A stretch of 64,000 bases of DNA, from NCBI GenBank assembly GCA_026418275.1, contig JAOABQ010000071.1:62001-126000 (forward strand), written 5' to 3'. Position numbers and translations under genes: made by a program. Each line of letters opens with the position of its first letter. Position 1 is the stretch's first letter. Under the pieces are notes generated by a model that did not search any database, was not told where the DNA came from, and saw nothing but the letters and a program-made list of their open reading frames with translations. This document shows positions 44,335 to 50,983 of this stretch, piece by piece. This DNA is from Clostridia bacterium. Lineage in GTDB: Bacteria; Bacillota; Clostridia; Acetivibrionales; DSM-2933.

Positions 44335-44877
44335 TTAAATCGCCTTAGTAAAACGGTCTGCAAAGCTGCTGGCACAAAAGCTGTCCGGTTTTATTTTGGG
44401 AACAAAACTGAGCCCTTTGACCATTCCCACCATTTCGCTAATCAGTCCTTTGGTCTGCCCCTTGGTTCCTACATCAATATGAAATTCAAAATCTACAGCT
44501 TTTGACCTTTCATTCTTTCCTACGATATTACAAATACGTTTAATCCTGTCGTCATCAAAAAGATATGCCAACTGCAGACTTGCACAAGTTTCCAGATAGA
44601 TTTTCTCTCTTAAGTTCCTAATCGGCCTTTTCACTTCGCTTTTATGGAGAAATCCTATGGCCCCTTTTCCAATCCGGTGTACATGGATACATGTGACAAA
44701 AACGCTGCTGGTTGAAACCTGGGAGTCGGTCCCGACAGATATTTTATACGAACTTTCAGTATCCGCTTTCATAAAATCAAGAATCGCTTCAAAAACGCCT
44801 TCAAAAGAAAAAGTTTCATTTTTTAAGTTTCTAAAAGTGGTATTTTCGTCAAAACAAAGCGTATTTCCAAGAACCAT
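44335..44877 (-). CDS. RNase H-like YkuK family protein (DUF458)
   Basis: The product has 180 residues. It matches the YkuK family: KISVGTDSQVSTSSVFVTCIHVH (in part VGTDSQV) with an Asp as in RNase H folds, EVKRPIRNLREKIYLET and DFEFHIDVGTKGQTKGLI (in part). The start at 44877 follows GGAGGGGTGG; the frame extends upstream to 45021 without a ribosome site. The role is unknown in general. Confidence 0.8.
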   Translation of the reverse strand: MVLGNTLCFDENTTFRNLKNETFSFEGVFEAILDFMKADTESSYKISVGTDSQVSTSSVFVTCIHVHRIGKGAIGFLHKSEVKRPIRNLREKIYLETCASLQLAYLFDDDRIKRICNIVGKNERSKAVDFEFHIDVGTKGQTKGLISEMVGMVKGLSFVPKIKPDSFCASSFADRFTKAI

Positions 44878-45025
44878 GCTTCCACCCCTCCAACCTGTTA
44901 ATATGATATTAAAATTATTTTTTGCCCAAACAGCATAAGTAATCCATGTAACATTGCCCATAGATGTCTTAAAATTTCTATACATCCATTCCGCTTTGGT
45001 GCATTGGAGTTCATAAAACATAAAA

Positions 45026-45264: not shown

Positions 45265-45492
45265 TCAGTCCAGCAAGGTATCAATCCGGTCCTTATCAAA
45301 ACCTACGATAATATTGCCATTGATATCAATAACCGGTACGCCTCTTTGACCTGACTTATTGACCATTTCCGTTGCTGCGTCTCTATTTGCAGATACATCT
45401 ACATCCTCAAACCGGATCTGCTTTGAACTCAAATAGTCTTTTGCTGTCTTACACCATGGACATGTAGGTGTTGAATAAACTTTTACCGCCAT
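45265..45492 (-). CDS. Glutaredoxin-like protein, CPWC type
   Basis: The product has 75 residues with active site TPTCPWC, the cis-Pro motif GVPVI and the C-terminal VGFDKDRID. It is like the 9-kDa glutaredoxin-like protein (Cp9) of Clostridium pasteurianum, which works with a TrxR-like flavoprotein (Cp34). The same two genes are adjacent here, 17 bases apart, so the pair is probably a dedicated disulfide relay, for example to a peroxidase. It is the last gene of the redox operon. Confidence 0.92.
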   Translation of the reverse strand: MAVKVYSTPTCPWCKTAKDYLSSKQIRFEDVDVSANRDAATEMVNKSGQRGVPVIDINGNIIVGFDKDRIDTLLD

Positions 45493-45509: not shown

Positions 45510-46385
45510 TTATTTTGTTTTTTTCACATATTCTATAATCCCTCTGCCCGCCAGCGCTCCCTGCCCAACGGCTACAGAAATCTGTTTAAATCCACCGGTA
45601 CAATCACCGGCTGCAAATAATCCTTCCAGGTTGGTCTGCATGTTTTTATCCACAACAACGGAATTTTCATCAACAATAATCCCCAGCTTCCGTGCAAAAT
45701 CCACACTGGATGCACTTTCGTAAGCAATAAATAAACCATCCAGCATTTCAAAGGTACCATCCTCAAAATAAATGCTTTCCAGGAATTCCTTCCCTTCCAG
45801 CTCCAAAATCGGCTTTCTATTTACTCTAAACATTCTGGAGTCTTCAATGTATTTTTCACTTAATTTTAACTCCTTACCGTTTGTAAAAATGGTTATATCT
45901 TTTGTGTAGGTAAGAAGCTCCAATGCTTCATGCACTGCATAATCTTTAAAGCCCAGGACTCCTACTTTCATACTTCGGTAGAAAAATCCGTCACAGGTAG
46001 AACAATAGCTGACCCCATTGCCCTCAAACTTGTTTAGATTGCCCACCCGCAGCTTCTTTTGGGGTTGGCCGGTTGCCAGAAGAACAGCTTTGGACAAAAA
46101 CTTTTGTGTTGATGTGGCTACTTCAAAAAAATCCATTTTATCAATCGAAATAACTTCGTCATCTATTAACTCTACACCAAGTCTTAATGCCTGCTTTTCT
46201 CCTTCATGCAAAAGCATGTCTCCCTTAATGGTATCGGCAAATCCGTAATAGTTTTCGATTTTTTCCGCTTTTTTGAGAACACTGTCATTTTTCCCGATAA
46301 CAAGGGTTTTTAAATTCGCTCTTACTGTGTAAAGGGAGGCTGATATTCCTGCCGGCCCTTTACCAATTATTATTACATCGTACAT
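45510..46385 (-). CDS. Thioredoxin reductase-like flavoprotein lacking the usual NADPH motif
   Basis: The product has 291 residues. FAD motifs are IIGKGPAGISASLY and GLFAAGDCTGG. The redox pair is CSTC. The second nucleotide-binding site reads VGVLGFKDYAVHEAL instead of GGGxSA, and no HRRxxxR follows. Loss of these is a known mark of ferredoxin-dependent flavin thioredoxin reductases of clostridia and of the Cp34 group. The electron donor is therefore probably not NADPH. The adjacent glutaredoxin-like protein is the likely acceptor. Confidence 0.85.
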   Translation of the reverse strand: MYDVIIIGKGPAGISASLYTVRANLKTLVIGKNDSVLKKAEKIENYYGFADTIKGDMLLHEGEKQALRLGVELIDDEVISIDKMDFFEVATSTQKFLSKAVLLATGQPQKKLRVGNLNKFEGNGVSYCSTCDGFFYRSMKVGVLGFKDYAVHEALELLTYTKDITIFTNGKELKLSEKYIEDSRMFRVNRKPILELEGKEFLESIYFEDGTFEMLDGLFIAYESASSVDFARKLGIIVDENSVVVDKNMQTNLEGLFAAGDCTGGFKQISVAVGQGALAGRGIIEYVKKTK

Positions 46386-46499: not shown

Positions 46500-47777
46500 T
46501 TATTTTCCGTTAATAAAACGTTCTACCATAATGCCCGCAATAGTCCCATCTCCTGACGCCGTAGATATCTGTCTAATTTTCTTGTCCCTCACATCTCCTG
46601 CTGCAAATACGCCGGGTATATTTGTTCTCATATCCTCGTCTGTCGGAATATACCCATATTCATTCAAACGGATCTGGTTTTTAAAAAGATCGGTTTTAGG
46701 CTGCATGCCAATATATACAAAAAGTCCCTCCGTCTCGATTTCGCTTGTTTCCTTTGTCTTTATATTTTCAACGGTTACACCCTTAACAAAGCTTTCCCCG
46801 TAGACCTTTCTTACTTCCGAGTTCCATATTACATTGATGTTTGGGTTCTTCAACGCTTCGTCCTGCGCTGCTTTAGATGCCTGGAAGTGGTCAAACTGGT
46901 GTACAATGGTTACCTGCTTTGCATACCTGGTAAGAAATACAGCCTCTTCAACAGCAGAATTGCCTCCGCCAACAACCAGGACATTAGCATCCTGGTAGAG
47001 GGCACCGTCGCAGGTAGCACAATAGTGAATCCCTCTGCCTCTAAACTCACGCTCGCCTTCTGCCGGTAGTTTTCTCGGTTCGGCCCCTGTAGCAATAATT
47101 ACGCTCTTGGCATAATAATCCGCATCTTCTGTCTGTACAAATTTTTCCTCACCGGCAAGGTTTACTGCGGTTATTTCTTTTAAATCATCAATTTGTGCGC
47201 CAAAGTCCAGCGCTTGCTTCTTCATATTTTCAACCAGGTCCAGCCCTCTTATTACCCCATTGGTTCCAGGGTAATTTGCCACATGATATGTCGTCGAAAC
47301 CTGGCCCCCGGGAAGCCCCTCATCAATCAGCACCGTAAACAGCTTGGCTCTTGCAGCATAAATTGCTGCAGACAAGCCTGCAGGTCCTGCCCCCAGAATT
47401 AATACATCACAGTAAACTTTTTGCCGTTCCTTTAAAATACAGGACCCGCCTATAACACCTTCAATCACTTTTCTAAGTTCGGGCTTATTAATATATCCGT
47501 TCAGTCTGGAGCATACTTCCTCTCCCTGATTGAAAAACAGTAGGGTCGGACTGCTTTTAACATTATATTTTTCAGCCAGCTGCCTGTTTTGCTGGCGAAA
47601 GATCCTTACAAACTTCATTTGTTCCCCATATATTTCAGCCATACGTTCAAAAATAGGGGCTAATGCCATACAGGGTGCACAATCCTCAGAATAAAAGTCT
47701 ACCACCACCGGTTTTTCATGTTGCAAGACATCCTTTTCAAAGGTTTCCATATTTGAGTAGATCATTTTGCCGCTCAT
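46500..47777 (-). CDS. Thioredoxin-thioredoxin reductase fusion
   Basis: The product has 425 residues. The N-terminal thioredoxin domain (about 1-105) has the active site SEDCAPCMALAP and cis-Pro SSPTLLFF. The C-terminal reductase (about 120-425) has FAD motif ILGAGPAGLSAAIYAARA, redox pair CATC and NAD(P) motif VVGGGNSAVEEA. The usual HRRxxxR that holds the NADPH phosphate is replaced by HQFDHFQAS, so NADH or another donor is possible. In the known fusion of Mycobacterium leprae the thioredoxin is at the C terminus; here it is at the N terminus. CGGAGG precedes the ATG at 47777, which is chosen over 47795. Confidence 0.92.
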   Translation of the reverse strand: MSGKMIYSNMETFEKDVLQHEKPVVVDFYSEDCAPCMALAPIFERMAEIYGEQMKFVRIFRQQNRQLAEKYNVKSSPTLLFFNQGEEVCSRLNGYINKPELRKVIEGVIGGSCILKERQKVYCDVLILGAGPAGLSAAIYAARAKLFTVLIDEGLPGGQVSTTYHVANYPGTNGVIRGLDLVENMKKQALDFGAQIDDLKEITAVNLAGEEKFVQTEDADYYAKSVIIATGAEPRKLPAEGEREFRGRGIHYCATCDGALYQDANVLVVGGGNSAVEEAVFLTRYAKQVTIVHQFDHFQASKAAQDEALKNPNINVIWNSEVRKVYGESFVKGVTVENIKTKETSEIETEGLFVYIGMQPKTDLFKNQIRLNEYGYIPTDEDMRTNIPGVFAAGDVRDKKIRQISTASGDGTIAGIMVERFINGK

Positions 47778-47808
47778 ACAAACACCTCCGTGCATGTGTA
47801 GTGTTAAA

Positions 47809-48465
47809 TTATTTGAGTTTGTCTATATAGTCATATATTTCCTCTTCGGAGATCGGCCCTATCATCTGGTCAAAAAGTGTTCCTTCCTTATCAATAATAT
47901 ACGTAGTCGGAATAGAGCTTATGTTATAGGTCTCAGCTACATTTCCTTTTGTATCCAGCAAAACCTTCATGGTGTATCCATTCTGTTCGATAAATCCCTT
48001 CGCCGTACCTTCACTCTCTCTTCCAAGGGTTAGGTTTACTGTAAGAATAACCGCATCCTTTCCCTTTTCCAGTTCCTTATGTACTTTTTCCAGATCAGGC
48101 ATTTCTTCTCTGCATGGCGGACACCAAGAGGCCCAAAAATTCAGAAAGACCACTTTTCCCTTGAAATCCGTAAGACTCACTTCATTCCCCGCTGTATCCC
48201 GCAGTGTAAAATCCGGTGCCATCAGCTTATCCGAATCCGGTTCTTCGGTTTCCTTAAAGCTATCATTCCTTTCAGGTGTGGCCACTACATCCGGTTCTTT
48301 GGTTTCAACAGTTTTTTCAGTTGGATTTGCTTCTGCGTTTTGGGAGGATGGGCTTTTTGGCTCTTCCTTGAGATTACTGTTTTGCTTGCTGTTAACTACA
48401 TAAGCCGCTACAAAAAGAAGTACAGTTGCAGTAACCCAAATTATAATCGTGCTGGCTTTTTTCAT
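47809..48465 (-). CDS. TlpA-family membrane-anchored thiol oxidoreductase
   Basis: The product has 218 residues. One membrane helix (about 8-25) is followed by a low-complexity acidic linker and a TlpA/ResA thioredoxin domain (about 80-218) with WASWCPPCREEMPDLE and a cis-Pro in SSIPTTYIID. It would work outside the membrane and receive electrons from the CcdA protein encoded just upstream. In ResA-type systems this keeps cytochrome c or other extracellular cysteines reduced; here no cytochrome gene is near, so extracytoplasmic disulfide reduction in general is more likely. Confidence 0.92.
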   Translation of the reverse strand: MKKASTIIIWVTATVLLFVAAYVVNSKQNSNLKEEPKSPSSQNAEANPTEKTVETKEPDVVATPERNDSFKETEEPDSDKLMAPDFTLRDTAGNEVSLTDFKGKVVFLNFWASWCPPCREEMPDLEKVHKELEKGKDAVILTVNLTLGRESEGTAKGFIEQNGYTMKVLLDTKGNVAETYNISSIPTTYIIDKEGTLFDQMIGPISEEEIYDYIDKLK

Positions 48466-48490: not shown

Positions 48491-49174
48491 TTATAATAAG
48501 TATATATTAAAAGTTTCCAGTATAAAAAGAATTCCTGCAGCTATTAATACAATTCCCGAAATAACATTTATTATTCTGCTGTATTTTTGTATTTGTTTCA
48601 GCATATTTTTAACCTGGTCAAACAATATAGCTGTCAATATAAAAGGTACCCCCAAACCCAGTGAATAAACAAAAAGTTTCATCATACCCTGAAAGACAGT
48701 GCTGCTGGTGGCAGCATCCGCTAAAGCAGCCCCTAGAAACCTGCTTGCGCAAGGTGTCCATGCAAATGCAAAAACCATGCCGAAAAGGATTGAAGTATAG
48801 AATTTTAAATCCTTGAATTTATAATCTATCCTCTTTTCAAAATCTAAAAATTTAAGCTTAATAACCCCTGCAAAATTCAGGCCAAGGAGGATCATCACCG
48901 CACCGCTTACCCTCTTTAAGAGATCCGGGTGGCTTTTAAGAAATGTTCCAAGGGAAGTGGCAGTTGCCCCTAGTGCTACAAACACCAGCGTAAACCCTAA
49001 AACAAACCCGATTGAATTTAAAATAAGCCTGTTTCTTCTTATTAGGGATGTACCGGCCGTATCCGCCGACACTCCCGCCAGATAAAAGAAATATATAGGA
49101 ATCATAGGTAAAATGCAAGGTGACAAAAATGTCAAAACCCCTTCAGTAAACCCAAATAGATAGTTATCAAGCAC
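48491..49174 (-). CDS. ccdA: CcdA-type thiol-disulfide transporter
   Basis: The product has 227 residues with six membrane helices. Conserved motifs are FLSPCILPMIPIY (first Cys, with the two prolines) and FAWTPCASRFLGA (second Cys), which pass reducing equivalents across the membrane. The start is GTG at 49174 with AAGGAAGG eight bases before. It is the first gene of a five-gene operon behind the promoter at 49352-49380. Confidence 0.93.
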   Translation of the reverse strand: MLDNYLFGFTEGVLTFLSPCILPMIPIYFFYLAGVSADTAGTSLIRRNRLILNSIGFVLGFTLVFVALGATATSLGTFLKSHPDLLKRVSGAVMILLGLNFAGVIKLKFLDFEKRIDYKFKDLKFYTSILFGMVFAFAWTPCASRFLGAALADAATSSTVFQGMMKLFVYSLGLGVPFILTAILFDQVKNMLKQIQKYSRIINVISGIVLIAAGILFILETFNIYLL

Positions 49175-49336: not shown

Positions 49337-49380
49337 ATACCCCCTATGGGTATTATACCCCTTCCTTTTAGCAATGTCAA
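49337..49380 (-). promoter_or_regulatory. Promoter of the redox operon overlapped by a CsoR/CstR-type operator
   Basis: On the minus strand TTGACA (49380-49375), exactly 17 bases, then TATAAT (49357-49352). The palindrome ATACCC-CCTAT-GGGTAT (49337-49353) overlaps the end of the -10 box and the expected start point. A second small palindrome, GGGTATAATACCC, contains the -10 box itself. TACCC-N-GGGTA is the operator form of CsoR/RcnR/CstR repressors (copper, nickel, persulfide sensors). No such repressor gene is in the window. Confidence 0.75.
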
Positions 49381-49562
49381 TGAAACTGCACTTCATCTTT
49401 AAATATTTTGTAACTTTTTCTATTTAATTGAATATTATGTCAATATGAAAATAGTTATCATCGCCCCCTTATCATTTTAATACATTTTTATAATGCATAG
49501 CGTCTTTACAGCATATTTTATTATTTAGGGGATAAAATTCACTATCATTGAGTGAGGTATTT

Positions 49563-49742
49563 ATGGATAAGGTTCAAAAAAAATCCAATGACAGTCTGCT
49601 GTTTTTTATTCTGGTTTTTCTTCTGCTGTTCTACGACAACAGCGCTATAAAAAGATCCACTCAGTACGTTTTAAAGCCCACTGAAAAAAATAATTCCATT
49701 TTATATTTTATACTAGTGTATCTCCTTTTATTTTACAAATGA
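49563..49742 (+). CDS. Small protein with two copies of a hydrophobic ILVFLLLF motif
   Basis: The product has 59 residues from the ATG at 49563 (GTGAGGT upstream; a TTG at 49548 is in frame). It contains SLLFFILVFLLLFYDN near residues 12-27 and SILYFILVYLLLFYK at the C terminus. The same motif occurs in the products at 51387 (minus) and 51001. It is part of a cluster ending in sleB, so a spore or forespore membrane role is an inference. Confidence 0.75.
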   Translation: MDKVQKKSNDSLLFFILVFLLLFYDNSAIKRSTQYVLKPTEKNNSILYFILVYLLLFYK

Positions 49743-49997: not shown

Positions 49998-50318
49998 ATG
50001 AACAATCCTTTAAACAAAAAATTGGCTGAAATGTTATCTAAAATGGATGAAAAGGTACTTAAAGCAAGACTTAATGCAGCGATTGACATGCTTAAAAATG
50101 GAAATACTGAGGAATTGGCAAACAAATTGAACAAGTTGGACAAAAATGAACTTCTTACTAAAATCAATGAAGTAGACGCATCAAAATTAGATGAATTAAA
50201 TATCAATAAATCCGAATTAAAACAGCAAATCAGCAATGCGGATCTTCAAAAATTATCCCAGCTTATTGGCGAAAATGGTGATGAAATTATAAATAAAATT
50301 AAAGACATTATTAAATAA
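49998..50318 (+). CDS. Helical charged protein of the sporulation-like cluster
   Basis: The product has 106 residues, Lys/Asn/Leu-rich and predicted fully helical (LNKKLAEMLSKMDEKVLK, ELANKLNKLDKNELL). No signal peptide or membrane helix. I do not recognise a named family. GAAAGGA precedes the ATG. Its neighbours are two other proteins without named function and sleB. Confidence 0.75.
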   Translation: MNNPLNKKLAEMLSKMDEKVLKARLNAAIDMLKNGNTEELANKLNKLDKNELLTKINEVDASKLDELNINKSELKQQISNADLQKLSQLIGENGDEIINKIKDIIK

Positions 50319-50528: not shown

Positions 50529-50584
50529 TGTTATCAATAAATTGATGAATCTTTTTGCCAAACTCTTCCCAGGGAGGAAAAACC

Positions 50585-50983
50585 ATGAATGATGATATTA
50601 ATAAAAAAATAAATCAGATTGCAGAGCTTTTAGGTAAGGACACTGTGCCGGATAACGTAAAGGGGCTTATTTCCCTACTGGCAAACAGTGCATCAAGTGC
50701 ACCCGCAAAACCTGAACCCACCCCAGTTTATGAGGAACGACCGGTTCCTAAGGAAGAAAAGCTTGTAAAAAATGATCTGGATGAAAGCCTGGATATGTTT
50801 AGAAAGGTTAAAACCGTAATGGACCGGATCAATACAAATCATGACCCGAGAATTAATCTTTTAAGTGCAATTAAACCCTTTTTAAACAGCAACCGGCAAA
50901 AAAAGCTTTCAAATTGCATCAATATTCTTCGTATGTCCACCCTTGCAAGATACATGGATGAACAAGAGAAGAAAAATCCCTAG
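50585..50983 (+). CDS. Hypothetical protein of the sporulation-like cluster
   Basis: The product has 132 residues from the ATG at 50585 (GGGAGG upstream). An N-terminal helical part (about 1-35) is joined by a Pro-rich linker (about 40-62) to a C-terminal helical domain (LDESLDMFRKVKTVMDRIN, NLLSAIKPFLNSNRQKKL) that ends with RMSTLARYMDEQE. No membrane helix. It precedes the 101-residue gene by 17 bases and is probably cotranscribed with it. Confidence 0.78.
   Translation: MNDDINKKINQIAELLGKDTVPDNVKGLISLLANSASSAPAKPEPTPVYEERPVPKEEKLVKNDLDESLDMFRKVKTVMDRINTNHDPRINLLSAIKPFLNSNRQKKLSNCINILRMSTLARYMDEQEKKNP

Follow-up and report, generated by a model that had tools for sequence, protein, structure and literature searches.

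Five genes on the minus strand of the window (the whole 64,000-nucleotide stretch analysed here), running from position 49174 down to 45265 in the order ccdA-tlpA-trx/trxR-cp34-cp9, encode a set of thiol-redox proteins, which raises the question of which regulator acts at their promoter and which signal it senses. The first gene (48491..49174) encodes a CcdA-like membrane carrier of thiol reductant (DsbD_TM; PF02683 over its cut-off), and the second (47809..48465) an exported thiol-disulfide oxidoreductase of the TlpA/ResA/StoA type (PF00578) with a WCPPC motif, for which ResA/StoA is the best match, yet below the equivalog cut-off. They are followed by a thioredoxin-thioredoxin reductase fusion (46500..47795; PF00085 at residues 13-111, TIGR01292 over its cut-off at residues 130-428), a Cp34-like, thioredoxin-reductase-like flavoprotein (45510..46385; Pyr_redox_2 over its cut-off, TIGR01292 below) and a glutaredoxin of the Cp9/YruB family with a CPWC motif (45265..45492; TIGR02196, 104 bits for a cut-off of 88.55). 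No convincing terminator-like hairpin was found between these five genes, and one lies behind the operon, at 45047-45026 of the minus strand. The adjacent flavoprotein and glutaredoxin genes resemble those of the Cp34-Cp9-Cp20 peroxidase system of Clostridium pasteurianum, as described in PMC3720550. In contrast to that system, no peroxiredoxin gene follows the Cp9 glutaredoxin here, the next gene (44335-45021) being RNaseH-like (PF04308), and our literature search found no link between CsoR and the Cp34-Cp9-Cp20 system.

Divergently from ccdA, three short genes on the plus strand (49548-49742, 49998-50318 and 50555-50983) encode a small and hydrophobic protein in which a LLFFILVFLLLFYD-like motif recurs, plus two short ones that are uncharacterised; none of the three has a clear Pfam match. 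Genes resembling them adjoin ccdA elsewhere in the order (L144, L206, L266). Together with the StoA-like TlpA protein, they may hint at sporulation.

A pattern scan of the window recovered the promoter that the preliminary description of this DNA had reported, a sigma-A-type promoter of full consensus, TTGACA-N17-TATAAT, at 49380-49352 of the minus strand. With 12 of 12 consensus positions and a 17-base spacer, it is the sole TTGACA-N15-19-TATAAT of the window, where 0.03 are expected in shuffles. The overlapping ATACCC-N5-GGGTAT palindrome was equally found where it had been described, over the end of the -10 box and the start point: it is the sole ATACCC-N3-7-GGGTAT of the window (0.02 expected by chance) and forms a predicted 17-bp operator of the CsoR type, ATACCCATAGGGGGTAT, at 49353-49337 of the minus strand, as indicated by motif scanning, by the promoter of the genome's own csoR and by orthologous promoters. 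Across promoter and operator, the minus strand reads TTGACATTGCTAAAAGGAAGGGGTATAATACCCATAGGGGGTAT. As the operator takes in the final two bases of the -10 box and spans the likely start point, a bound protein would cover these parts of the promoter. The further palindrome noticed over the -10 box is also present: GGGTATTATACCC (GGGTATAATACCC on the minus strand), outward-facing, occupies 49348-49360 and contains the -10 box. It could be one half of a degenerate second operator unit. In a related genome (G005, locus L206, 1607-1641), two complete operator units stand in tandem, one base apart, before ccdA, and their junction, GGGGTATAATACC, is common to the window; the extra palindrome may thus, from its sequence, be the remnant of a second unit like that of this tandem. 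The leader upstream of ccdA is about 170 nt long; since an Rfam search of the region matched no known RNA family, the reading as an RNA switch was dropped.

When CsoR/CstR genes were searched for, as the preliminary description had proposed, the genome (5.8 Mb in 115 contigs) turned out to encode exactly one PF02583 protein, on a contig (C49) other than that of the window; the lack of any CsoR-family gene, which had been named as fatal to the proposal, is therefore not the case. The protein, L001, has 101 amino acids and scores 106 bits against PF02583 for a cut-off of 22.8, with trxA downstream of its gene on the same strand. The csoR promoter has the same kind of site at its -10 box, TATAAT being followed by ATACCTATATAGGGTAT, so that CsoR should repress itself. 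L001 has the cysteine, the His-x3-Cys and the preceding tyrosine of a copper site (Y42, C43, H68 and C72), matching the structurally characterised copper CsoRs. It also has the two conserved cysteines of CstR, which are invariant over its aligned branch, together with the histidine that is absent from the CstR type; with this complete Tyr-Cys...His-Cys set, it is not, by its residues, a CstR. Of the CsoR/CstR-type operator initially postulated on a thiol-redox promoter, the assignment to the CsoR family is thus retained at the level of sequence, with persulfide as a candidate signal.

The other targets of such a regulator were looked for in the same genome. The short motif TACCC-N5-7-GGGTA had 19 matches as against 25 in the reversed control, per strand, and, as it did no better than this control, the 17-bp unit was used instead. 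The unit that recurs genome-wide, ATACC-N7-GGTAT, has 19 matches, and 4 of the 15 that were inspected are intergenic, the others lying inside genes. In the 5.8 Mb, the strict motif ATACCYNNNDRGGGTAT has five matches, one within a gene and four at promoters: (i) that of the window operon, (ii) that of csoR-trxA, (iii) that of a lone Cp9-like glutaredoxin, 43 bp from the gene start, and (iv) that of an operon encoding an Fe-S membrane protein, a rhodanese lipoprotein and a rubrerythrin, where it comes after a TTGACA...TATAAT of its own. As the strict motif was picked after these sites were known, how many of them this genome has cannot serve as independent evidence, which comes from the relatives instead. 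Most of the seventeen one-mismatch sites with loci are intragenic, and none of those examined adds a credible target. Of the genes typical of CstR regulons, sulfide:quinone reductase, persulfide dioxygenase and TauE did not turn up among the strict-site genes, and the rhodanese lipoprotein operon does carry a strict site. The assembly has an estimated contamination of 5.8%, and the mixing of genomes is an unlikely cause of this picture, as the same one is seen in relatives. A near-identical intergenic element with inverted GCCTCG/CGAGGC arms, GTGCCTCGCATACCCTAGAAAAGTATTACNTTACGAGGCA, was also noticed in L123 and L126 around position 1501 (C28:133854 and C49:26507).

In four genomes of the same family, the strict motif precedes the Cp9-like glutaredoxin gene in all four. 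This site is divergent from the Trx-TrxR fusion gene in three of them, and a rhodanese gene lies behind the glutaredoxin in the fourth. Further targets in these genomes are ccdA-tlpA, the rhodanese lipoprotein, the Fe-S membrane protein, a C_GCAxxG_C_C redox protein and csoR, the remaining strict matches being intragenic. Over 54 genomes of the order, 47 target-gene sites were found in 26 of the 36 CsoR-bearing genomes, as against 1 of the 18 CsoR-less ones; tallied from the site tables, glutaredoxin is a target in 23 CsoR-bearing genomes and ccdA in 11. In three genomes, strict operators also precede methyltransferase-like genes (L255 1606, L269 1593, L274 1650) that have an SCNLSCGSN motif and are possible arsenite-methyltransferase-like members of the regulon. 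In several genomes, others lie near small ferredoxin-like proteins (CPxxxxCP...CIKCxxC; L223, L244, L253, L275), a possible further target family.

CsoR-less genomes often still have the target genes of the regulon. Five of their glutaredoxin promoters are 4-5 positions off the motif, which is the chance level (a sixth, L304, was left out of the count, having been measured from the wrong ORF). Most of their ccdA promoters have no intact site, a few of the ccdA starts being uncertain (e.g., L309, L310, L312), and near-intact ccdA sites survive in two CsoR-less genomes of one genus (G025 and G026). In named genomes, the ccdA relatives examined, with an identity of 50% or less, have no site near ccdA.

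To place L001, a tree was built from 48 CsoR proteins of the order and seven from the PDB. L001 falls in a group of 23 members with a support of 96/95, whose inner forks are poorly resolved because of the few alignment columns. A strict site precedes target genes in 21 of the 23 genomes with this branch, as against 6 of the 31 without it (Fisher p about 1e-7, with kinship ignored, the 54 genomes being related and their counts not independent). The recognised neighbours of branch members are trxA or ccdA/tlpA/grx, and never copA. Both cysteines are invariant across the branch, and the residue preceding the first one is Y, N, Q, D, G, S or P. The position of the copper-site histidine is occupied by His in 13 of the 23 members and by Tyr in 10, the complete set of four copper residues being kept in only 6, and the genomes of the Tyr type (e.g., G001, G003, G006, G007, G038) share the targets of those of the His type. 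Many branch members have a one-mismatch operator at their own promoter, e.g., ATACCCATACGGAGTAT. Outside the order, among the 23 nearest relatives fetched, trxA or glutaredoxin is downstream in 16 and an operator-like site is found at the own promoter in 12. In some Clostridia outside the order (L332, L334, L336, L341, L345), the gene order is csoR, a gene that reads as RseC-like, and trxA, which may point to a connection with membrane redox proteins of the RseC type.

Sequence comparison documents the promoter, the operator, the membership of the regulon, the autoregulatory site, their conservation and the joint loss of regulator and site, and these point to a conserved CsoR regulon for thiol reduction. 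The link exceeds what was initially proposed, as the predicted regulon is multi-operon, autoregulated and kept across the order, with the csoR-trxA linkage extending to the wider class. That CsoR binds and represses is inferred from the geometry of the site and from known CsoR-family repressors (PMC10318464, PMC4528141). In the whole explanation, to which we give a probability of roughly two in three, the operator at 49337-49353 would be bound by L001 as a thiol-responsive CsoR governing a thiol-redox regulon. When cell thiols are reduced, the repressor would sit across the -10 box and the start point and silence a very strong promoter. C43 and C72 would then react, most likely with persulfide or polysulfide or through an oxidation that bridges subunits by a disulfide or polysulfide, and the repressor would be released. 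This could turn on, in parallel, csoR-trxA, the window operon, the second Cp9-like glutaredoxin and the Fe-S/rhodanese/rubrerythrin operon, whose products would give reducing power to cytosolic and exported thiols and deal with sulfane sulfur. Since protein persulfides are reduced by thioredoxins in S. aureus (PMC6196236), a regulon of this kind would make a suitable response.

The signal is probably thiol-reactive, i.e., persulfide, polysulfide or disulfide stress, as suggested by the invariant cysteines, the drifting copper site, the redox-only regulon and the rhodanese. With CstR and its B. licheniformis relative YrkD (PMC9918477) as models, sulfane sulfur would be the first candidate. L001 shares with these repressors the PF02583 family and two conserved cysteines and, as predicted from sequence, an operator on the promoter, a rhodanese target and self-regulation. 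Unlike them, L001 would chiefly control trxA, Cp9-like glutaredoxin, Trx-TrxR and CcdA-TlpA, and it retains the copper His and Tyr. S. pneumoniae CstR (7mq3), which has Ala at the position of the copper His, falls outside the 23-member branch, on a long and unsure branch. TTHA1953 of Thermus thermophilus (PMC10318464) is likewise a CsoR-family repressor modulated through cysteine reactivity and controlling scattered sulfur genes, but its operator, TACNNTACNNNNGTANNGTA, lacks the G/C run and its targets are Sox and cytochrome genes rather than those of thioredoxin or glutaredoxin.

It is possible, if rather doubtful, that the branch senses another electrophile or oxidant (an O2-derived peroxide, an aldehyde or a quinone) through the same cysteines, persulfide being irrelevant. 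Peroxide defence does include rubrerythrin and systems of the Cp34/Cp9 type, and the formaldehyde sensor FrmR belongs to the family (PMC5016687). Nevertheless, rhodanese is a recurrent target and the invariance of both cysteines is that of CstR, which both speak against this reading.

A copper-sensing CsoR, in which Cu(I) on C43-H68-C72 would derepress thioredoxin and glutaredoxin genes because copper attacks thiols, appears unlikely, and copper may still act as a signal in this organism because L001 keeps the full copper site. L001 shares its fold family and its Tyr-Cys...His-Cys residues with the copper CsoRs of M. tuberculosis (2hh7), Geobacillus (4m1p) and S. lividans (4adz), and G/C-rich, pseudo-palindromic promoter operators are also used by copper CsoRs (PMC10318464). 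On the other hand, linkage to copA/copZ or an operator at such genes is missing: the neighbour of csoR is trxA, the two best copper-ATPase loci of the genome (on C28 and C32) have no operator, and no copA-like gene is found behind a strict site in the 54 genomes. The other three P1B ATPases adjoin ArsR- or MarR-like genes and were covered by the genome-wide motif search. Moreover, the copper residues are not conserved within the branch, where targets stay the same with Tyr in place of His, and the copA-adjacent, copper-type CsoRs form a separate group in the tree, of twelve proteins with Tyr-Cys-His-Cys; these, and several other proteins with Pro-Cys-His-Cys, mostly lie beside copper-ATPase-like genes.

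That a regulator other than CsoR binds the site is very improbable. Six genomes in which no branch member was detected do have a target gene behind a strict site, and one of them, G025, keeps it at ccdA with no detected CsoR at all; against this, the motif stands at the promoter of csoR itself and in class-wide csoR-trxA units, and the site is nearly always lost along with csoR. Finally, the palindrome can be drawn as a short hairpin, but its reading as a leader hairpin or a chance sequence with no protein partner is already contradicted by the comparative data, the site being kept at orthologous promoters and lost with csoR; its rarity in the window and the lack of an Rfam match also speak against it.

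The family, its fold and thiol sensing within it are already known. In our literature search, which covered mostly open-access papers, we found neither a report of CsoR control of Trx, Grx or CcdA nor a description of the trxA-linked branch, its operator or its thioredoxin/glutaredoxin/CcdA regulon, and CsoR goes unmentioned in a 2024 study of the thioredoxin systems of clostridia. The novelty initially claimed for the link is in agreement with this, the regulon comprising rhodanese as well as thioredoxin and glutaredoxin systems. Little is known of the way in which strict anaerobes detect thiol and sulfane-sulfur stress and adjust their several thioredoxin systems; our results provide a regulator together with its exact operator and a regulon that can be tested in many genomes. 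They suggest, from sequence, that in clostridia part of a family taken for copper sensors protects thiol and sulfur chemistry. We lean slightly towards the view that, across the class Clostridia, this CsoR branch has left copper sensing and now serves the thioredoxin, glutaredoxin and CcdA systems as their dedicated thiol/persulfide switch, the copper His decaying while the regulon stays unchanged. Since the CsoR-family genes of clostridia usually carry annotations as repressors that respond to copper or metals, the annotation of a whole branch may be wrong, and this branch would offer a natural series for a copper site turning into a thiol sensor.
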